A stretch of DNA of 64,000 bases, from assembly GCF_001553455.1 (NCBI RefSeq), contig NZ_BBOX01000138.1:1-64000 (forward strand), written 5' to 3'. The notes beneath the pieces were generated by a model that saw nothing but the letters and a program-made list of their open reading frames with translations, had not been told where the DNA came from and did no database searches. Position 1 is the first letter of the stretch, and every line of letters starts with the position of its first letter. The DNA comes from Streptomyces hygroscopicus subsp. hygroscopicus. Lineage in GTDB: Bacteria; Actinomycetota; Actinomycetes; Streptomycetales; Streptomycetaceae. Shown piece after piece: positions 23,344 through 52,903 of this stretch. The position numbers and the translations under genes were made by a program.

Positions 23344-23372
23344 TTGACCGGAGTCCATGCGGTAGGTAAGCT
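23344..23372 (+). promoter_or_regulatory. promoter of the str operon (rpsL)
   Basis: TTGACC at 23344-23349 and TAAGCT at 23367-23372 with a 17-bp spacer. This gives a leader of about 210 nt before rpsL. Confidence 0.6.
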
Positions 23373-23462
23373 CACACCTCGTGCCTGGGGTGTGCCCGGG
23401 TCCTGGTGTATGCGCTCTCCGGACGGCTTCGGCCGGGGGTGCCACAGCTCGGGATGCCGAGG

Positions 23463-23556
23463 CGAGACGCCGACTCATACGCACTTTCCGTCTCGCGGAG
23501 GTTGTATGGGGTCTGCGACACACCCGACCGCGTGGGTCGGAGAAATCCCAGGTTAG
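23463..23556 (+). promoter_or_regulatory. rpsL leader element shared with rpsJ; possible 16-aa leader peptide
   Basis: GCGAGAC (23463-23469) can pair with GTCTCGC (23490-23496), immediately before a GGAGG at 23497-23501 and an ATG at 23506. From the ATG a short frame reads MGSATHPTAWVGEIPG and stops at 23554-23556, 36 nt before rpsL. Positions 23513-23541 match the rpsJ leader at 36316-36344 with one mismatch; the core is the hairpin CCGACC-GCGTG-GGTCGG (23524-23540). It could be an RNA control element, a leader peptide gene, or both. Confidence 0.6.
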
Positions 23557-23592: not shown

Positions 23593-23964
23593 GTGCCTAC
23601 GATCCAGCAGCTGGTCCGCAAGGGCCGCCAGGACAAGGTCGAGAAGAACAAGACCCCCGCCCTCGCGGGGTCGCCGCAGCGCCGTGGCACATGCACCCGC
23701 GTGTTCACCACGACGCCGAAGAAGCCGAACTCGGCGCTCCGCAAGGTCGCGCGTGTCCGGCTGAGCAGTGGGATCGAGGTCACCGCCTACGTCCCGGGTG
23801 AGGGGCACAACCTGCAGGAGCACTCCATCGTGCTCGTGCGTGGCGGTCGTGTGAAGGACCTGCCGGGTGTTCGCTACAAGATCATCCGCGGCTCCCTCGA
23901 CACGCAGGGCGTCAAGAACCGCAAGCAGGCTCGCAGCCGCTACGGCGCCAAGAAGGAGAAGTAA
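23593..23964 (+). CDS. rpsL: 30S ribosomal protein S12
   Basis: A 123-aa decoding-center protein. [19 protein letters not shown] and [16 protein letters not shown] carry the lysines (about positions 43 and 88) where streptomycin-resistance mutations fall; both are wild type here. GTG start; GGAGAAA lies just upstream. First gene of rpsL-rpsG-fusA-tuf. Confidence 0.98.
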
Positions 23965-26820: not shown

Positions 26821-28014
<1,194 letters not shown>

Positions 28015-28037
28015 CCTGACGCTCCCCGGAGCTCGTA

Positions 28038-28076
28038 AAGAGCCCCATTCGCCTCTGGCGAGTGGGGCTCTTTCGT
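28038..28076 (+). terminator. terminator of the str operon
   Basis: A 16-bp stem, AAGAGCCCCATTCGCC (28038-28053) with GGCGAGTGGGGCTCTT (28057-28072), loop TCT, then TCG. It is a strong rho-independent terminator. Confidence 0.88.
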
Positions 28077-28131
28077 ATGTGGGTACCCGGCCGTCCACAT
28101 CGAAGCCGCGTTCGACTTCGGGAGCGAACAG

Positions 28132-28785
28132 ATGATGACCAATGGCAAGATCGCGGTCGCGATCACGGGAGGCTATCTCCTTGGACGCACGAAGAAGGCC
28201 AAACTCGCCGTGGGGCTGGGCATGTTGCTGGCCGGGAAGAAGATCGCGCTGGATCCGCAGCAGCTGAAGAAGGCCCTCGCCGAGACGCCGCTGCTGAGCG
28301 GCCTCAACGGACAGGTGCGCAAGGAGCTCGCCGACGCCACGCGGCAGGCCGCGACGAAGGCCGTGTCCGACCGGGTGAACGGCCTCGCCGATGCGCTGCA
28401 CGAGCGCACGGCGGCGCTGCGCGGCGGAGGCGCGGAGGAGCGGGGCGAGGACGAGGAGCCCGCCGAGGAGGAGGGCGCCGAGGGGACGGAGGGTGGTCCC
28501 AAGGAGGAGGGACCCGAGGACGAGCGGGGTGCTGAGGACGAGCGGGGTGCCGAGGGGGCGGAAGCCGACGCGGAATCCGAACCCGAGCCGAAACCCAAGC
28601 CGCCGAAGCCTCCCCGCAAGGCGGCGGCCAAGGCCCCGGCCCGTCCGGCGAAGAAGACCGCCGCGTCCGGTGCGAGCAGGGCGAAGAAGACCGCGAAGAC
28701 CGCGAAGACCGCCAAGAGAGCGAAGAGCGCGAAGACAGCGAAGACGGCCAAGGCCGCGAAGACCGCCGGGGGCCGCAATGGCTGA
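28132..28785 (+). CDS. membrane-associated/low-complexity protein with Lys/Ala-rich histone-like tail
   Basis: A 217-aa protein of unknown role. The first ~60 residues, [20 protein letters not shown] followed by [20 protein letters not shown], form two short hydrophobic stretches around basic residues, then a helix-forming region ([37 protein letters not shown]). A Glu/Gly-rich spacer (about 100-150) leads to a Lys/Ala/Thr tail of KTAK-like repeats (about 155-217) similar to histone H1. I recall relatives next to SRPBCC genes in Streptomyces, some near gas-vesicle genes; none are seen here. It overlaps the next gene by 8 nt, so the two are coupled. Either of two adjacent ATGs could be the start. 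Confidence 0.7.
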
Positions 28786-29881
28786 CACCCTGGGCAAGCT
28801 CAAGGACGACCTCGTCAAGAACCCGGCCACCGACCGTCTCAAGGACGAGCTGCGCGACTACGTCCAAGCGCGGGCGACGCAGGCGATCTCCGGTCTCGGC
28901 ACCGGCCTCGCCAAGGGCGCGCAGTCCCTCGCCGAGGGCAAGCCCCCGGGGCAGGCCCTGGTGAAGACCGGCTCGTCCCACCTGAAGGAGTCGCTGAAGG
29001 AGTCCCTGAAGGGTTCGCTGAAGGAGAAGGTCAAAGGGGTGTTCGGCAAGGGCCGGAACAGGAGCGGAGGCGGCAAGTCCAAGAGCGTGACGATCGTCGA
29101 GGACATCGACGTCGGGGTGCCGGTCCGCGAGGCGTACGACCAGTGGACCCAGTTCCAGGAGTTCAGCACCTTCGCCAAGGGCGTCGTCAGCGTCGAGAAG
29201 GCCGACGACACCAGCAGCAACTGGAAGGTGAAGGTCGCCAAGTCCACCCGCAGCTGGCACGCGAACGTCACCGAGCAGGTGCCCGACCAGCGCATCAGCT
29301 GGACCACGGAAGGCGCGAAGGGCACCGTCAAAGGCGTCGTCACCTTTCACCCGCTCGGCGACAACCTCACCCGGGTGCTGCTGGTCCTGGAGTACTTCCC
29401 CAAGGGCCTCTTCGAGAAGACCGGCAACATCTGGCGCGCCCAGGGCCGCCGCGCACGGCTCGACCTGAAGCTCTACCGGAAGTTCATCATGATGCGCGGT
29501 GAGGCCACCGACGGCTGGCGCGGCGAGATCCAGGACGGCGAGGTCGTGGTGGACCACGAGACGGCCGTGGAGGAGGAAGAGCGCGACAAGGCCGAGGGAG
29601 ACGCCGAGGGTGACGGCGCGCCGGAGGCGGAGTACGAGGAGGAGCCCGAAGACGCTGGTCCCGAGCCGGACGAGGAGGCGGGGGCCGAGGAGGACGGGGA
29701 GCCGGAGGCGGCCCGGGAGCCCGACGAGGAGGCCGAGGAGCCCGAGGCATACGAGGAGGAGCCCGAGGCGTACGCGTACGACGAGGATGAGGACGAGGGC
29801 GAGGACGAGGAGTTCGAGGAGGAGCCCGACGAGTCCGGGGAACCCCGCCCCCGGCAGCGCGCCGCCGCGGCCCGCGGCTGA
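28778..29881 (+). CDS. SRPBCC (START-like) family protein with acidic tail
   Basis: A 367-aa protein. Residues about 1-100 are helix-forming and Lys-rich ([40 protein letters not shown]). At about 105-240 lies a polyketide cyclase/START-like fold: [75 protein letters not shown], which suits binding of a hydrophobic ligand. The last ~130 residues are almost only Glu/Asp/Ala/Pro. The ATG overlaps the upstream gene end (ATGGCTGA). Opposite tail charges in the two products suggest they associate; that is inference. A hairpin follows. Confidence 0.78.
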
Positions 29882-29921
29882 CCACCCACCGGCCCGCCCC
29901 CGACCGAGGCCGGAACATCCT

Positions 29922-29957
29922 GGGCCCCACCCGTACGAGAGACGGCGGGTGGGGCCC
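29922..29957 (+). terminator. hairpin after the SRPBCC gene
   Basis: GGGCCCCACCCG (29922-29933) pairs with CGGGTGGGGCCC (29946-29957) across a 12-nt loop, about 40 nt after the stop codon. Confidence 0.65.
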
Positions 29958-30051
29958 GGCCGCGTCGGGAGCGCAGACCGGACGCGCGCCGGATGAGCAC
30001 CGGGGGCGGCGGAGCGGGGACGCGGGCCGGTGCCGGGCCGGGATGCCGCGG

Positions 30052-30236
30052 CACCGAAGGGCGCTCGAACCACGCTGGGAAGGGCCCTTCCCGGAGGTGG
30101 CCCGGGTCCCTGCCGGGCGGCGTCGGCGCGTGGACCGGGGAGCGGGCCGGGGGCGGAGCGGAGGCGGCACCGAGGTGCGCCTGAACCACGCCGGAAACGG
30201 CATCCCCCGGCGAGGCCCGGGTCCCCGCCGGGGACG
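30052..30236. repeat. imperfect ~60-bp direct repeat pair
   Basis: Two related stretches, about 30049-30118 and 30160-30236, share GCACCGA...GCTCGAACCACGC / GCGCCTGAACCACGC and GGCCCGGGTCCC...GCCGGG. They lie in a gene-free, extremely GC-rich 609-bp gap (29882-30490) that shows no convincing gene on either strand. Confidence 0.65.
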
Positions 30237-30249
30237 GTCCCCGGCACCC

Positions 30250-30480
30250 GGGCCGGACGCGAATGCCGGGGACGACCCGAAGGCCGTGCCCCATGGCGCG
30301 GGCCAGGAGCCGTGCCCCATGGCGCGGGCCGGACGCGAATGCCGAGGACGCGATGCCGGGGACGCGGCCCGGGGGCCGTGCCCCCTTGGCGCGGGCCGGG
30401 AGCCGTGCCCCATGGCGCGGGTCGGACGCGAATGCCGGGGACGCGACCCGGGGGCCGTGCCCCATGGCGCGGGGCGGGAA
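30250..30480. repeat. interspersed GC-rich repeat array with CCATGG cores
   Basis: Two alternating units: GCCGTGCCCCATGGCGCGGG at about 30283, 30309, 30402 and 30454, with a variant at 30375 that reads CCCCCTTGG, and GGACGCGAATGCCGGGGACG at 30254, 30331 (one change) and 30424. They fill the region downstream of the PIG-L gene stop. Unit order and spacing are irregular, unlike CRISPR. Confidence 0.85.
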
Positions 30481-30490
30481 GGCCGGGGTG

Positions 30491-32680
30491 TTACGCGCGT
30501 GACGTGGGACGGGGGCGCCAGATCCAGGGGGAGGCGTCCGGCGCGATGCCGACCACGTGGACGCGCTCGCGGCCGTCCGCCAGCAGTGCCGGGGCGCCGA
30601 CCGGGATCAGGTGGCCGGGGGAGCGCAGCGGCCTGGCGCTCGGGCCGGTGCCGTACTGGACCTGCACCTCTCCGCCCAGGTCCCGGCCGAGCAGCAGCAG
30701 CGTCTTCGCCTCGGGGCGGCCGGACGGCTGGGCGACGGTGTGTGCGGCGATCGACCCGTAGCCCTCGAAATGCCGCACCGTGCGGGCGGTGTCGCCGTGG
30801 ACGGTGGGCACCGTGGCCGCGGGGGTGCGGTAGACCAGCGCGAGCCCCCCGGCGGGGTCCACCGCGGCGCCCAGCGGATCGCCGCCGGGGCCCGGCAGAC
30901 CGGCCGGTGGGAGCAGTGCGACCGGGCCGCCGGTCCGTTCCTGGGCCCAGTGGTGGACGGTGTCGCGGCCGGAGGCGAAAACATGGACCCGCCCCTCGGC
31001 GTCGAGCAGCGCGGTCAGCCCGTCCTGGATCTCGGCGCCGCCGAGCCGCTGCCAGGGACCCCAGCGGCCGTCGGCGTCCCGGACCCGGGTGGCGAGACCC
31101 TTGTCCGCGGTCCGTACGAACAGGTGGACCCGGCCGTCAGAGGTGGCCACCGCCGCCGGGCAGCCGACCCGGCGGCCGTGCTCGGTGCTGGTCTCGGGGG
31201 TGCCGAGTCCGGTCCAGGCGCGGAACGGGCCGTCCGGGCCGCGTTGTTCCAGCACCACGATCTCGCGCTGGTCGGCCAGGCCCTGCCCGGCCAGCGCCGC
31301 GAACCGCAGGGCGATCAGCACCTGCCGTCCCGCGCTGTCCCGCACCGCGGTGAGCGCCGGGGCGAGCGGTCCGCCGCCGAGCCCCAGCGGCGCCCCGAAC
31401 CGTCCGCTGCCGGGCGCCGTCTCGCGCCACCGCACGGCCTGGGTGCCGAGCACCCCGTACGCCACGAGCCGGCCCTGGGCGTCGGTGGTGGGGGCGAGCG
31501 GGGTGGTGGGGTAGCGGTAGTGGGTGGAACGGATCCAGCCCTTGCGGTTCTGCAGCGGGCGCAGACCCCCCTGGCTGTAGTCGCCGCAGCCGGCCGGGTC
31601 GCCGCAGTCCCAGTCCGGGGCCCCGCCGTAGGACTTGATCGCCCGCGCCTTCTGGGCGAGCACGGCGGGCGGCAGATTGTGCGGCCAGCGCTGGTTGTAG
31701 TACCCGCGGAACGCGGTGGTGGTGAAGCGCGGGGCGCGCTTGTCCCGCCCGGTGGAGGCGGCCACCCACTGGGCGATCGCCTTCCAGGTGAACAGCGCGA
31801 CCGGGGTGTGGTCGCGGTGGTCGGAACAGCCCGGCTGATCGTTGTCCTTGGGGTGCAGGGCGTCGTGCACCTGGAAGTCGGGGTCCGGGTCCAGGGTGTG
31901 GATCAGCGTGGGCCGGTAGCGGTCCATGATCTCGGCGAGCACGTCGACCAGCGTCTGATGGCCGTACGAACTCGGGTGCGCCACGGGGGAGCCGGTGGCC
32001 GGCAGGGTGCGCATCACCGTGCCCGGGGTGCTCCACAGCGCGGGGATCCGTACGCCGCCCTCCGACAGCATCGCGATGTTGAGGAAGATCAGCCGGACCC
32101 GGCGGGCGTTGCCCACCAGGGTGTTGGTCTCCGCCGTGACCCCGCCGGGCAGCCGCAGCACCGACCGCTGCCAGGGTGTGAACTGGTCCAGCCCCATCAT
32201 CCGCGCGTACGCCTGCCGCAGCCCCTGATGGCGGGAGGCGGAGTACGCGGCCTTGTTCGGCCGTGGGATCGGCGTCCCCGGCGCGTGGTTGATCCCCACC
32301 GCCTCACCGGCCGTGACGTACACGCTCACCACCGGCACGCCGGAGCGCAGCACGTGCTCGGCGTCCGGGTTCATGAAGTACAGATCGTCGTCGGGGTGCG
32401 CCATGACCTGCAGCAGCAGCGCGTCCTTGGCGCCTACCGCCGAGGTGAAGGGCTCCGCCGCCCCGGGCGCGGTGGCCTGGGCGGGCGCGGCGGGCGCGGA
32501 GGCCGTGGTACGCGAGCGGCCGGCGCTGCACCCGGCGATCCCGGCGGCTCCCGCGGCGGTGAGTGCCGCCAGCGCGGCGAGCGTCTGCCGGCGGGTGGTC
32601 CGCCTTTCCGGCAGTGTCCATCGACTGTTCAATTCGGCGACCCTGTCACTTCGGCAGCGCGTAGTTTCCGGCTGCTCCAT
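30491..32680 (-). CDS. Tat-exported PIG-L family deacetylase lipoprotein with propeller-like C-terminus
   Basis: A 729-aa protein. A twin-arginine-type signal (TRRQTLAALAALTAAGAAG) ends in a lipobox with Cys51, so it is probably exported folded and lipid-anchored. The PIG-L/LmbE zinc hydrolase domain follows: VMAHPDDDLYFMNPD (His95, Asp98 region), IMDRYRPTLIHTLDPDPDFQ, and CSDHRDHTPVALF, supplying metal ligands for N-acetylglucosamine-type deacetylation. From about residue 430 on, repeated blocks such as VATSDGRVHLFVRTADKGLA, WGPWQRLGG and GRVHVFASGRDTVHHW resemble a fucose-lectin/PLL beta-propeller. The natural substrate is not known. The start at 32680 has no clear Shine-Dalgarno. Confidence 0.88.
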   Translation of the reverse strand: MEQPETTRCRSDRVAELNSRWTLPERRTTRRQTLAALAALTAAGAAGIAGCSAGRSRTTASAPAAPAQATAPGAAEPFTSAVGAKDALLLQVMAHPDDDLYFMNPDAEHVLRSGVPVVSVYVTAGEAVGINHAPGTPIPRPNKAAYSASRHQGLRQAYARMMGLDQFTPWQRSVLRLPGGVTAETNTLVGNARRVRLIFLNIAMLSEGGVRIPALWSTPGTVMRTLPATGSPVAHPSSYGHQTLVDVLAEIMDRYRPTLIHTLDPDPDFQVHDALHPKDNDQPGCSDHRDHTPVALFTWKAIAQWVAASTGRDKRAPRFTTTAFRGYYNQRWPHNLPPAVLAQKARAIKSYGGAPDWDCGDPAGCGDYSQGGLRPLQNRKGWIRSTHYRYPTTPLAPTTDAQGRLVAYGVLGTQAVRWRETAPGSGRFGAPLGLGGGPLAPALTAVRDSAGRQVLIALRFAALAGQGLADQREIVVLEQRGPDGPFRAWTGLGTPETSTEHGRRVGCPAAVATSDGRVHLFVRTADKGLATRVRDADGRWGPWQRLGGAEIQDGLTALLDAEGRVHVFASGRDTVHHWAQERTGGPVALLPPAGLPGPGGDPLGAAVDPAGGLALVYRTPAATVPTVHGDTARTVRHFEGYGSIAAHTVAQPSGRPEAKTLLLLGRDLGGEVQVQYGTGPSARPLRSPGHLIPVGAPALLADGRERVHVVGIAPDASPWIWRPRPTSRA

Positions 32681-32881
32681 GTGAGAGGACGATCGGTGAT
32701 CTTGACAGGTTGTCCCCTGGCCAGGAGGTCTCGGTCACAGATTGGGCACACCGCCGCCACGGGGCCACCGCATACCGCCGAGTGCCGGCCCTCGGCCCTC
32801 GGCCCTTCGGCCACGTCAGAGCGCTTTTCGGCGCGCCGACCTCCCCGGGCGCGCGGTCCGCCGCACCAGCACGCGCGCCGG

Positions 32882-33322
32882 CTACCGGTAGCGCGGCAGG
32901 TTCTCCGTCGAGATGGTCCACTCGCCGATCGTGACGTCCTCCCCGTAGACGAAGTCCTTCCGGGTCGCGTAGCGGGGGCCGTGCGGGGTGGAGTGGATGT
33001 CGGACAGTACGGCGCCCTCACCCGTACGGGGGTCGAAGATTGGTTCGGGCCGTGGCCGAACGGAACGGCGCCGCGGCCGGGGTGGGGCGCCGGGGCCGGG
33101 GCTGGTTGCCGGGCGCGGGTTTCGTTTCGCGCCTTCGGCGCAATTGAGCAGCGGGGCAGGGGCGGGGGCGCGGGCCGTGCCGCCGGCCGCCGGGTCGGTG
33201 GGAGCGGGCGCCGGCGGCGGCATCCGTGTTCGGGAGCCGGGCCGTCGCCGGGCCGCCGGACCCATTCCACCGGACCCATTCCAGGGGGGGTGGGAGTACC
33301 CCCCTGAATATTGATTGACCAA
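32882..33322 (-). CDS. hypothetical protein, possibly a mosaic or degenerate gene
   Basis: An open frame of 146 aa. The last ~55 residues (EPIFDPRTGEGAVLSDIHST, RYATRKDFVYGEDVTIGEWT, ISTENLPRYR) look like real protein; the ending is reminiscent of Uma2-family C-termini, but I cannot assign it. The N-terminal ~90 residues are Pro/Ala/Arg-rich and run through one copy of a 23-bp inverted repeat (33128-33150), so they may be non-coding. The ATG at 33322 lies at the edge of an AT-rich patch that could hold its promoter. Confidence 0.4.
   Translation of the reverse strand: MVNQYSGGYSHPPWNGSGGMGPAARRRPGSRTRMPPPAPAPTDPAAGGTARAPAPAPLLNCAEGAKRNPRPATSPGPGAPPRPRRRSVRPRPEPIFDPRTGEGAVLSDIHSTPHGPRYATRKDFVYGEDVTIGEWTISTENLPRYR
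33128..33150 (+). repeat. 23-bp inverted repeat, left copy
   Basis: Contains the self-complementary GCGCCTTCGGCGC (a UUCG-type mini-hairpin) followed by AATTGAGCA. The exact reverse complement is at 33500-33522. Similarity continues imperfectly into GC-rich flanks. Confidence 0.85.
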
Positions 33323-33358
33323 TTAGTTGCGTTAGGTCAAGCGTTTTTTAGAGGGGTA
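33303..33358. other. AT-rich patch with TTGACC/GGTCAA inverted pair
   Basis: An island of low GC in very GC-rich surroundings. TTGACC (33315-33320) and GGTCAA (33334-33339) are complementary, and a T-run follows at 33344-33349. A 33283-33305 hairpin (AGGGGGG with CCCCCCT) adjoins it. It could be a promoter or operator for the minus-strand frame starting at 33322. Confidence 0.45.
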
Positions 33359-33499
33359 CCCGGAGGGGCCGCCCCTCGGACCCACCGGCCCGTACTCCGG
33401 ATCGGACCGTATGTTCCCCCGTCGCCGAGCCGCCACGGCCTCAACACCCAACCGGCCCGGCAGCCGGCGGGTCCGCCCCGCCCCCATCCCCCCGACCCA

Positions 33500-33522
33500 T
33501 GCTCAATTGCGCCGAAGGCGCG
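33500..33522 (-). repeat. 23-bp inverted repeat, right copy
   Basis: Perfect reverse complement of 33128-33150. The 314-bp stretch 33323-33636 between the two minus-strand frames holds this repeat and the AT-rich patch; I see no gene in it. Confidence 0.85.
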
Positions 33523-33636
33523 AGACGGCGCCGCGCCTCGGACTCAGCACAAAGGCCACCGTGGGCGATCTGCTGCTGGAGCTCTCCAGTCGCTTCGCCG
33601 CCCCGACGACGCCCCTCACGCCGACCTGACGCCCTG

Positions 33637-34650
33637 TCAGGCAGCGGTCGGCGCGAGGGCCCCTCCGGGTTCTCGGCAGTCCCGGCAGCGGCCGGGCTTC
33701 GGGGCACGGAAGGCCCGGTCACAGCCGTCACAGTTCTGGAGGGGGACGACCGCCGGGCGCGAGGTGGGCTGGGCGGCTGGGAGAGGCGGCGGCAGCAGCG
33801 CCGTGAGGCGGTGGGCGAGCAGGGCGGCCGGGTGACGCAGGTCGGGCGGGAGGCCCGCACTCAGTGCACGGCGTACGGCCTCGGGGGCGGCGCCGCGCTC
33901 CAGCCAGGTGGTGACGGCGGGGGCGAGACGGCGCACATCCCGCTCGGGCAGGAGTAAGCGGTCGTCGTCGCGGCGCAGCTCCGCGAGGAGCGATGTTGCG
34001 GCGCGGGCGGGGGTCGTCCCGGTGGGCACGGCGTCGACCTGGGTGGTCCGCGGGCGCGGCGGCACGGGAGGCGCCACCGGAACACGTGGCGGGGGCGGGA
34101 CGGGCGGGGCGGGCGGTACGGGGGCGGAGCCGGTCCGGGACGGTGATGCCTGGCCGGGAGAGGTCCGGGGCGTGCGGCCGGAATCCGCCCGGGAGGGTGG
34201 TGCCTGGCCGGGATCGGCCACGGGCGGCGGTGCGGGCGGCCCGGCCGCCTCGCGCAGCCGGGGCTCCCCGGCGCGGCGGCGGGCGCGGGTGGCCCCGGGG
34301 TCGTTGTACGAGAACGTCCGGGTGACGATCCGTCCCTCGGGCGTACGCTCCCGGACCCGCTCGAGGTACCCGCACAGCTCCAGCTCCCGCAGCGCGGCGG
34401 CGATCCGGTCCCGCCCCTCCGGGAACCTTCCGGCCAGCGTCCTGATGTCCACCTGGGCGCCGTCGGGCAGCGACTGGATGTGCGCACCGAGCCCGATCGC
34501 GGTCAGGGAGAGCTCGCGGTGCTGGGTGAGGTGGTTGCCGATGATCGTGTACCGGGTGGGTTGGTGCTCACTCACATGAGTGAGTCCGCCGGCGGATCGG
34601 CGAACCAGGGAAAGAGCGCGCGGGGGCGCGCTAGGCTGCTGTTCAGCCAT
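33637..34650 (-). CDS. winged helix-turn-helix protein with C-terminal zinc ribbon
   Basis: A 337-aa probable DNA-binding protein. The start at 34650 gives MAEQQPSAPPRALSLVRRSA. After TRYTIIGNHLTQHRELSLTA, the segment IGLGAHIQSLPDGAQVDIRT and LAGRFPEGRDRIAAALRELE forms a winged helix resembling replication-initiator or DnaD-like modules, ending in RTFSYNDPG. A long Pro/Arg-rich linker (about 135-215) leads to a helical part with LLLPERDVRRLAPAVTTWLE and a final CxxC...CxxC zinc ribbon (NCDGCDRAFR, CRDC). This architecture is common and multicopy in Streptomyces; a function is not established. No clear Shine-Dalgarno precedes the start. Confidence 0.75.
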   Translation of the reverse strand: MAEQQPSAPPRALSLVRRSAGGLTHVSEHQPTRYTIIGNHLTQHRELSLTAIGLGAHIQSLPDGAQVDIRTLAGRFPEGRDRIAAALRELELCGYLERVRERTPEGRIVTRTFSYNDPGATRARRRAGEPRLREAAGPPAPPPVADPGQAPPSRADSGRTPRTSPGQASPSRTGSAPVPPAPPVPPPPRVPVAPPVPPRPRTTQVDAVPTGTTPARAATSLLAELRRDDDRLLLPERDVRRLAPAVTTWLERGAAPEAVRRALSAGLPPDLRHPAALLAHRLTALLPPPLPAAQPTSRPAVVPLQNCDGCDRAFRAPKPGRCRDCREPGGALAPTAA

Positions 34651-35343
34651 CGGGAAGCGCCTACTTCCTCGTTGGTCAGGCCCTCGAACGGGAAGCCACT
34701 CCCGGCCGAGGGCCGTCGCATGTCTGGGGTTGTCGAGCCCGAGCCTGCCCTGCCGAACGGCCTGTGCGCCAGCGGGAGCGGACGGGATCACCCGTGCGGG
34801 TGACCAGGGTGAGGTTTGGATGGGTTGGGTGGGTTCTTTCCGGCGGTTCTTGGTCTTTGATCTCCCGTAGCCCCGGGATATCGGCTACCGGCGCCAGGGA
34901 TGCCGGACGCCGGTGCGGGTGCGGGCGGACGAGGGCCCCCGGCTCGCGTTCACGCCGGACGCGTTGGACCCGCTTCGTGACCTACGCGTCCGCGCGCTGA
35001 TCCGCTGATCCGCTGATGCGGAGCTCCCGGTGCCGTTCGGGCCGGGAGCTCTCGTGTGCCTCTCACGCAACGGTGTGGTGGTGCGATGTCCGGCCGTCGT
35101 CCTAGCGAGCCTCTATGGTGGCGCTGCCCTCTACTGCGCGCTTCCCCGCGCCGAGTTCACGGGGATGCCGATTCTGCTGACGGACGAAGAGGACGCCTAT
35201 CCGCCCGGGGTGCTCACCGTCGACATCGAGTCGCCCGGCATGCTGGGCTCTCACTGAGCCTGCCTGCTACCTGCTGCCTGCCCTGCGCGTGAGCGCGGCG
35301 GCCAGCGGGCCGGTCGGCCGTCAACCTCGCGCCGTTCGGTTCC
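34651..35343. other. gene-poor region upstream of the Uma2 gene
   Basis: About 690 bp with no gene I can support. At 34879-35011 the plus strand reads RVRADEGPRLAFTPDALDPL before a stop, a possible remnant of a small regulatory protein of the DUF397 sort. A frame at 35030-35257 (GVLTVDIESPGMLGSH at its end) has no family I know. A short direct repeat GCTGATCC lies at about 34996-35014. Confidence 0.4.
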
Positions 35344-35374
35344 TCCCTATGTGCGGCATTGCCGCACATAGGGA
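35344..35374. promoter_or_regulatory. 31-bp palindrome, candidate operator
   Basis: The arms TCCCTATGTGCGGCA (35344-35358) and TGCCGCACATAGGGA (35360-35374) are perfectly complementary around a single central T. It lies 47 bp before the Uma2 start. With a 1-nt center it cannot form an RNA hairpin without unpairing the middle, so a dimeric protein site is likely. Confidence 0.7.
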
Positions 35375-35421
35375 CGCTACCGTGGATGCAAGGGTCGAAG
35401 ATCTCGTCCATGGGAGGAATC

Positions 35422-36009
35422 ATGACCGCCGAACCGCAGCGCACCACCTGGCCCGTGCCGCCGCCGGACGGCTACACCGTGGACGATCTCTACAATCTGC
35501 CCGACCTCCCGCCGCACACTGAGTTGATCGACGGGAGTTTGGTCTTCGTGAGCCCGCAGCGGGTTTTTCATACGCTGGCGATGTATCTGCTGGACACCGG
35601 ACTGCATCAGACCGTGCCGGACGAGTTCCGGGTGCGCCGGGAGATGACCGTCGTGCTGGGCCCTCGCAACGCCCCCGAGCCCGATCTTCTGGTGGTGCGC
35701 GCGGAAGCGGAACAGAACGATGAGCAGACCCGGTACGAAGCAGCCGACGTGCTGCTCGCCGTGGAGGTCGTCTCGCCGGACTCCGAGGACCGGGACCGCG
35801 AGGCCAAGCCCCTCAAGTACGCCGCTGCGGGCATTCCCCACTTCTGGCTGGTCGAGAAGGCGGGCCGGGGTCGACGGCCGACGGTCCACACCTATGAGCT
35901 GGACCCGGTCACCAAGTCCTACACGAACACCGGCATCTACCACGAGCGGCTGAAGCTGACCGTCCCGTTCACGATCGACATCGACCTCACCGCGATCGAT
36001 CACCTGTAG
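35422..36009 (+). CDS. Uma2 family (PD-(D/E)XK-like) endonuclease
   Basis: A 195-aa protein of the Uma2/DUF820 family, which keeps a restriction-endonuclease-like fold and is strongly expanded in Streptomyces and cyanobacteria. Visible: GYTVDDLYNLPDLPPHTELI (Glu at strand 1), DGSLVFVSPQRVFHTLAM, APEPDLLVV (the PD), VLLAVEVVSPDSEDRDREAK (ExV..S motif), KYAAAGIPHFWLVE. The ATG at 35422 has GGGAGGA upstream. Biological role is not settled for the family. A large palindrome sits in its promoter region. Confidence 0.88.
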   Translation: MTAEPQRTTWPVPPPDGYTVDDLYNLPDLPPHTELIDGSLVFVSPQRVFHTLAMYLLDTGLHQTVPDEFRVRREMTVVLGPRNAPEPDLLVVRAEAEQNDEQTRYEAADVLLAVEVVSPDSEDRDREAKPLKYAAAGIPHFWLVEKAGRGRRPTVHTYELDPVTKSYTNTGIYHERLKLTVPFTIDIDLTAIDHL

Positions 36010-36284
36010 AGCGGACGAGCGCCGAGTTTGAACCGCCCCCCGCAGGGGGTACGCTTCCGGGCTCCCTGATTGGCATCCGGAGAGCCCCGTATGGCACACT
36101 AACCAGGTTGCTCGGTTGAGTGCCGATGCTGCGCGCCTCCCGCCGGGAGGACCGGAAGCGAGTCCCACAGTACTCGTCGCCCCTGATCAGGGGCGGAAGT
36201 ACGGGAATCTTCCGGGAAGTGTCAGCGGGGCCCCAGCCAGGCGCCCGGTGGGTGACTTTCTCCCCCAGCAACCCCCTTCACCAG
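36010..36284 (+). other. upstream part of the rpsJ leader
   Basis: Gene-free. TTGGCA at 36070-36075 and TATGGC/CACTAA around 36090-36102 offer only imperfect promoter matches. The S10 operon promoter is expected in this stretch, because a single long operon begins at rpsJ. Confidence 0.4.
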
Positions 36285-36346
36285 GGATCTCCGTTGCGGA
36301 GATTTATGAGAAGGGCTGCGACACGCCCGACCGCGTGGGTCGGAAG
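36285..36346 (+). promoter_or_regulatory. rpsJ leader element shared with rpsL
   Basis: ATCTCCG (36287-36293) pairs with CGGAGAT (36297-36303), covering the GGAG that precedes an ATG at 36306. From there [13 protein letters not shown] is encoded, matching ATHPTAWVG of the rpsL leader, but no nearby stop follows and the frame is out of phase with rpsJ. Positions 36316-36344 match 23513-23541 with one mismatch, including the hairpin CCGACC-GCGTG-GGTCGG (36327-36343). It lies about 70 nt before rpsJ. Confidence 0.6.
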
Positions 36347-36414
36347 TGAGGGGAGCGGGACGCGAAGGCCACCGGGTCCCAGAGCGTTACGAGAGACAGG
36401 ACTACGAAGTAGCC

Positions 36415-36723
36415 ATGGCGGGACAGAAGATCCGCATCCGGCTCAAGGCCTACGACCACGAGGTCATCGACTCCTCGGCGAAGAAGATCGTCGAGACGGT
36501 GACCCGCACTGGTGCGTCGGTCGCGGGCCCGGTGCCGCTGCCCACAGAGAAGAACGTGTACTGCGTCATCAAGTCGCCGCACAAGTACAAGGACTCGCGC
36601 GAGCACTTCGAGATGCGTACGCACAAGCGCCTCATCGACATCCTCGACCCCACGCCGAAGACGGTCGACTCGCTCATGCGTCTCGACCTGCCGGCCGGCG
36701 TCGACATCGAGATCAAGCTCTGA
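36415..36723 (+). CDS. rpsJ: 30S ribosomal protein S10
   Basis: A 102-aa protein, also known as NusE, which joins antitermination complexes. [58 protein letters not shown] and [11 protein letters not shown] are typical. The ATG at 36415 gives the standard length. First gene of the S10 operon. Confidence 0.98.
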
Positions 36724-52791: not shown

Positions 52792-52903
52792 AACCCGCTG
52801 GTCCGCTGTGGCTGAGGTCGCGTCCTCAGCCGCCGGACGGGCTGGATTCCGTTCACTGACACCGGTACCTGATACGGCCGGTGCAGACATCTAGGAGAGA
52901 CAC

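Follow-up and report, generated by a model that had tools for sequence, protein, structure and literature searches.

The boxA/nut and put antitermination RNAs are short cis signals of the leader, present once per transcription unit, which act on RNA polymerase; the put RNAs are structured, those of the put type presenting two conserved stem-loops. In the leaders of ribosomal-protein genes, mimicry of the ligand's rRNA site is common, though not universal. In Escherichia coli, as described in the portion of PMC10931766 used here, S7 represses the str operon and L4 the S10 operon, so that two proteins and two sites are involved, the S10 site being in the leader and the S7 site between rpsL and rpsG. 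Other cis elements placed before ribosomal-protein genes are the L17 leader of RF03132 and the 20 candidate leaders given in PMC7247131; in the portion of PMC7247131 used, these leaders have structures supported by covariation, and its Table 1 holds no rpsL or rpsJ leader in Actinobacteria. For Mycobacterium tuberculosis, the consulted part of PMC3207917 reports likenesses between the leaders of rpoA and rpsM and between those of infA and infC, which were read as coordinate regulation; these also are leaders of translation genes, but of different genes, and a likeness between rpsL and rpsJ was not found in that part. A paper on mycobacteria mentions, in the sections used, that almost no information exists on such regulation in Actinobacteria (PMC8470358).

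Here we describe a 25-nt element present in both the str and the S10 leader of Streptomyces hygroscopicus subsp. hygroscopicus. It appears to be a control signal, so far undescribed, that would couple the two operons. Both copies lie in the window, by which we mean the whole stretch of 64,000 nucleotides that was analysed. The operons are those controlled by S7 and L4 in E. coli, and the E. coli S10 site is likewise in a leader (same portion of PMC10931766), but unlike the two E. coli sites the present element is a single one, found before either rpsL or rpsJ. No Rfam 15 family reached its gathering score over either leader; at E ≤ 1 there was no match at rpsL and there were two at rpsJ, far below cut-off, one of them an lncRNA model with 20.6 of 50 bits. 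The open-access literature gave neither a description of the element nor any of six written forms of the motif (subscription papers and preprints being outside the scope of this search), and no description was found in the consulted parts of PMC8470358, PMC10931766, PMC3207917 and PMC13236596. Elsewhere in the window, the L17-Actino-Proteobacteria leader (RF03132, 53.4 bits) was recognised at 52837-52886, 5' of rplQ.

The element and its recurrence across the class

An earlier note on this DNA had drawn attention to two 29-nt blocks, at 23513-23541 and 36316-36344, differing by one mismatch and preceding the genes of S12 and S10. The blocks, the single mismatch and the identity of the genes were all confirmed. 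The element defined within them, CGACAC(A/G)CCCGACCGCGTGGGTCGG, is conserved over 25 nt at 23516..23540 (+), 77 nt 5' of the start of rpsL, and at 36319..36343 (+), 96 nt 5' of the start of rpsJ. The rpsL gene (23593..23964, +), with a GTG start at 23593, leads the str unit, and rpsJ (36415..36723, +) leads the S10 unit. Position 6 of the element (23522 and 36325 in the window) separates the two copies steadily within the genus, being A in 17 of 20 rpsL copies and G in 18 of 20 rpsJ copies; among 19 genomes outside the genus, base agreement between both copies of one genome was not seen.

When the 9.46-Mb assembly was searched with the 26-mer GCGACACNCCCGACCGCGTGGGTCGG and up to three mismatches allowed, matches occurred solely at the rpsL and rpsJ leaders, and the reversed control pattern gave none. 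The 17-mer CCGACCGCGTGGGTCGG occurs twice, both times exactly; with up to two mismatches 0.23 occurrences are expected, and two copies were reached in 2 of 100 shuffles. The 14-nt 5' half of the element is found exactly in the window at these two leaders only, and with up to three mismatches it gives 59 matches there for 63.9 expected.

The same 26-mer, at up to three mismatches, was present in 120 of 121 genomes of the genus (118 of 118 good ones) and in 252 of 296 genomes of the class (233 of 267 good ones; 92 of 114 genera), both counts including the window's own genome, so that the recurrence is more than chance. Outside the class, 26 of 225 genomes matched, all with two or three mismatches, for 12 with the reversed control, and nine of these matching loci, when examined for the window's ribosomal-protein, fusA, tuf and rpo genes, were without str/S10 genes. 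Among the named genomes, an exact 20-mer gave at least 122 matches in at least 120 stretches. Of the 122 matches listed, 116 lay at most 400 nt upstream of rpsL (47) or rpsJ (69); three more were cut by the edge of the locus and three lay elsewhere. The earlier note had asked whether the block also stands ahead of other ribosomal-protein genes; its sharing by the two leaders was upheld among these matches, with 3 of 122 elsewhere. The matches listed at the two genes come from Streptomyces, Mycobacterium, Mycolicibacter, Nocardia, Rhodococcus, Micromonospora, Frankia, Nocardioides, Arthrobacter, Brevibacterium and Candidatus Nanopelagicales, and one from a bin labelled Acidimicrobiales, a label taken as given.

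Diverged copies extend this picture. A profile of the element found in each of 15 small genomes a single strong match (E ≤ 5.4e-5), always 5' of rpsL (15/15), the second-best match in any of them having an E of 0.028; no second recurrent site was seen among the candidates scored, mostly 150 per genome. The small genomes of one family (f25) keep the core as C(G/A)ACAC.... Eleven of 13 class genomes which failed the 26-mer pattern have a recognisable diverged element 5' of rpsL or rpsJ. Among those failing it, L181 presents a partial match 353 nt 5' of rpsJ, and L182 has no element 5' of rpsL in a locus that does not include rpsJ. In four more non-matching genomes rpsL itself was not found.

Sequence conservation, pairing and reading frames

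Conservation was studied on 153 copies (102 rpsL, 51 rpsJ) selected by a match within three substitutions. In this sample there is no variation in ACAC (with one exception), in CCCG, in CG or in the G of position 18; G or T predominates at positions 14 and 17, and position 6 is occupied by A or G. The conserved pattern is ACAC-CCCG----CG-GG. An alignment of 62 of the 64 distinct variants, two being omitted, has 10 invariant columns out of 25.

The earlier note had stressed a perfect hairpin with a 6-bp stem, CCGACC/GGTCGG, and had looked to compensatory changes in it. Within the genus the five inner pairs are indeed kept in 54 of 54 and 42 of 42 leaders and the outer pair in 52 and 41, and the stem is the sole prediction of a consensus fold of the genus leaders. 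Outside the genus it breaks freely. Over the 62 variants none of the six pairs was altered on both sides and 78.0% of the cells were paired, for 79.2% after shuffling; the expected covariation is therefore absent, and the compensated hairpin was rejected as a conserved feature. The right arm is conserved less than the left, and the strongest mutual information is between adjacent columns. From this linear conservation, which comes without compensated pairs, we read the element as one recognised by its sequence; conceivably the stem was unable to vary since its 5' arm is fixed.

Other pairings were considered and abandoned. The alternative stems CCC/GGG and CCCG/CGKG are uninformative, since each of their pairs either never varies or does not form. 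In the two variants with G at position 17 that were tested, the minimum-energy structure is an extended hairpin, CGAC..GTCG; 27 of the 73 G-type copies disrupt it, as do all 80 T-type copies at one pair. The 6-bp stem is kept in 62 of 80 copies with T at position 17 and in 30 of 73 with G, a difference which disappears over distinct variants (6/21 versus 9/43, P 0.54). An outer helix enclosing the element in rpsL leaders from outside the genus seemed strong when compared with permuted partners (mean -14.00 versus -12.63, sd 0.30), but dinucleotide shuffles gave mean z values of -0.11 and -0.24 and hence no support.

The same note had proposed a 16-aa leader peptide starting from an ATG at 23506. 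This ATG and its 16-codon frame do exist in the window, the frame closing at 23556, 36 nt 5' of the rpsL GTG. For this and the later counts of frames, distances, promoters and rRNA likeness, a single representative was counted for leaders identical over 250 nt, the collections of named and other genomes being overlapping, and the shuffles of the orientation, frame, promoter and rRNA tests preserved base composition only. An ATG at -10 is present in just 3 of 308 distinct copies, all of them rpsL, and the peptide does not survive this comparison. Closed frames running through the element number 47, 44 and 41 in 162 rpsL leaders, for 43.2, 44.6 and 42.1 with shuffled flanks, and 38, 30 and 47 in 146 rpsJ leaders, for about 38 each after shuffling. 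There is thus a modest rpsJ excess in the frame of the earlier note (47/146 versus 37.9), and in another frame 20 ATG-started frames were counted for 11.9; these small excesses notwithstanding, the peptide was rejected on the frame counts. Conservation of codons fails as well, the variable sites 6, 12, 14 and 17 fitting no single codon frame. Nor did we see the hallmarks of a leader-peptide attenuator: no small ORF is conserved (3/308), and a scan of the rpsL and rpsJ leaders of the window found no terminator-like site. The upstream GCGGAGrTT...ATG proved not to be a general feature, this flank differing between species.

Placement of the element in leaders and transcription units

The start of the element is separated from the gene by a median of 90 nt at rpsL (161 of 162 rows) and 95.5 nt at rpsJ (146 rows), with a range of 53 to 293 nt, which places it away from the ribosome site. 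One rpsL row (L241) is a mis-assigned rpsJ copy and is present in the frame, distance and promoter sets of 162. A putative rpsL promoter, TTGAC-N18-TAAGCT, lies at 23344..23372 (+); a strict sigma-70 scan of the window did not pick it up. The corresponding pattern, TTGAC-N17..19-TANNNT, was found in 134 of the 162 distinct rpsL leaders and in 13 of 1620 shuffled ones, ending 21 to 295 nt 5' of the element in those having it, and in 26 of 146 rpsJ leaders. Its presence upstream in so many rpsL leaders makes transcription of the element likely; at rpsL it is probably part of the untranslated leader RNA.

The surroundings of the two copies present features of their own. The rpsL promoter region (GTTTTGACC ... 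TANNNT) recurs over the class, with TTTTGACC in 41 of 83 leaders compared, as does a GTGCC(T/C)GG hairpin directly 3' of it, the two together covering 23344-23400 in the window. This hairpin region holds CCTGGG-GTGTG-CCCGGG at 23384..23400 (+), whose pairing is predicted and which lies close to where the rpsL transcript presumably begins; GTGCCTGG is present in 20 of the 83 leaders, and this 5'-end hairpin may be a second feature of the rpsL leader. The rpsJ leaders have in common, near their presumed start (36095-36117 in the window), GGCA(T/C)ACT and CAGGTTGCTCGG, with GGCATACT in 16 of 33 and CAGGTTGC in 10 of 33. Closer to the element, hairpins of variable sequence are predicted by folding at 23481..23509 (+) in the rpsL leader, with an outer and an inner stem, and at 36274..36315 (+) in the rpsJ leader, with CCCTTC..GAAGGG as outer and ATCTCC..GGAGAT as inner stem. 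The stretches concerned fold better than shuffles in the genus (-38..-2 of rpsL, mean z -1.27; -45..-16 of rpsJ, mean z -1.15); outside it, the mean z is -1.23 for rpsJ leaders and weak, at -0.47, for rpsL leaders.

The number of copies per locus follows the arrangement of the operons. Both leaders could be judged in 93 of 121 loci (the window and 120 others, the first 60 of these 120 having been taken from genomes already matching the genus or class search). The element stands before rpsL only in 47 loci, before both genes in 39, before rpsJ only in 5 and before neither in 2, of which one (L149) has a diverged copy 5' of rpsL. When the gap between tuf and rpsJ is at most 301 nt, a separate rpsJ copy was seen in 0 of 47 loci; when it is larger, in 44 of 46, or in 24 of 26 without the 20 loci of the genus. 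With transcription units deduced from such gene gaps, this indicates that a single element before rpsL serves a joined str-S10 unit and that a separate S10 unit carries its own copy. The orientation is fixed: among 214 leaders the 20-mer matched the sense strand in 153 and the antisense strand in 3, and shuffled leaders matched in 5 of 5460 trials. In the window the interval from tuf to rpsJ (28014-36415) measures 8.4 kb, the sampled loci of the genus ranging from 459 nt to 12.8 kb, and it contains on the minus strand, at 34651-34880, an Rfam match to the Streptomyces sRNA scr4677 (RF02673, 76.1 bits). The portion of PMC5784534 used gives, for Corynebacterium diphtheriae, a start that was detected and names rpsJ-rpsQ, with 11 genes, as its largest operon.

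Possible function

A signal in nascent RNA that acts on transcription fits the features taken together: one copy per unit, an unvarying orientation, linear conservation, the distance to the start codon and restriction to str and S10. Our leading reading, with a probability of about 35%, is by analogy with boxA and put a cis element of the nascent RNA through which one factor would govern both operons at the level of transcription. The transcription machinery, or a factor that it carries, would recognise mainly the sequence ACAC-CCCG----CG-GG, and the element would in this way set how far RNA polymerase proceeds along the long str and S10 operons. One factor would then govern both operons where these are separate, and for joined operons one copy would be enough. 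More specifically, and tentatively, it could be an anti-pausing or antitermination RNA signal dedicated to str and S10, once per transcription unit, read mainly by primary sequence and unlike boxA, put or any Rfam family. Like boxA/nut and put, the element is a short leader signal found once per unit, with a supposed action on polymerase. The resemblance stops at the sequence: compared with an E. coli form of boxA, the best sites of both leaders have 3 mismatches of 9 (TGCTCGGTT of the rpsJ leader being one with 3), and a mycobacterial form gives 5-6 mismatches of 15. As regards put, folding favours an upstream hairpin in the genus leaders and, outside the genus, at rpsJ but not at rpsL; the element's own stem lacks covariation. 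RNA polymerase of M. tuberculosis pauses widely and leaves incomplete transcripts, according to the part of PMC10937400 used; by analogy, we infer that such pausing is a setting in which a signal of this kind would pay.

A feedback mechanism, with a ribosomal protein as the regulator, has about the same probability as this transcription-level signal. An excess of a protein from either operon (e.g., L4, S7 or S10) would bind the element and repress both units, with the precedent of S7 on str and L4 on S10 in E. coli (PMC10931766, portion used). Among the matches listed the element stands ahead of ribosomal-protein operons only, with 116 of 122 at rpsL or rpsJ, a restriction expected of feedback just as much, and the once-per-unit rule fits it equally. 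However, one protein would then have to control a second operon too, through an element which has no compensated structure and lies 53-293 nt 5' of the start codon. When the element was compared by sequence with the 16S and 23S rRNA of four lineages, no match was better than shuffled, and pairing with rRNA gave runs of 8-11, none of which was common to all lineages at the invariant 5' half. Sequence-type conservation, the dyad CCGACC-N5-GGTCGG with the adjoining CGACAC and an RNA structure devoid of compensatory support would also suit a DNA-binding regulator acting downstream of the promoter; this seems unlikely to us, given that the right arm is conserved less than the left, that the orientation is fixed and that, in the 134 rpsL leaders with the promoter pattern, the element begins at least 21 nt beyond its -10 part. 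Equally improbable is a site of RNA stability or processing, recruiting or blocking a nuclease and so setting the life of both mRNAs: its location in the leaders of two abundant mRNAs agrees with such a role, which alone leaves the restriction to str and S10 unexplained.

Two further explanations carry very little weight. Translation-coupled control through a leader peptide, the mechanism favoured by the earlier note, can point to the closed frame in the window and to the rpsJ excesses, but with the ATG so rarely kept, rpsL closed frames near the shuffled level and variable sites without a common codon frame it is highly improbable, and translation coupling is unlikely where no frame exists. 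Duplication by chance inside one genome agrees with the two copies of the assembly; it is refuted by the class-wide recurrence before rpsL and rpsJ, shuffled leaders matching so seldom, and its probability is negligible. Of the earlier proposal, what stands is the link itself, one element shared class-wide by both leaders and placed once per unit; the peptide and the compensated stem fall away.

Streptomyces, mycobacteria and most of the sampled relatives would share one undescribed control point for their two largest ribosomal-protein operons. The once-per-unit rule renders the idea directly testable, and the growth-rate control of ribosome synthesis in antibiotic producers would become accessible to experiment.
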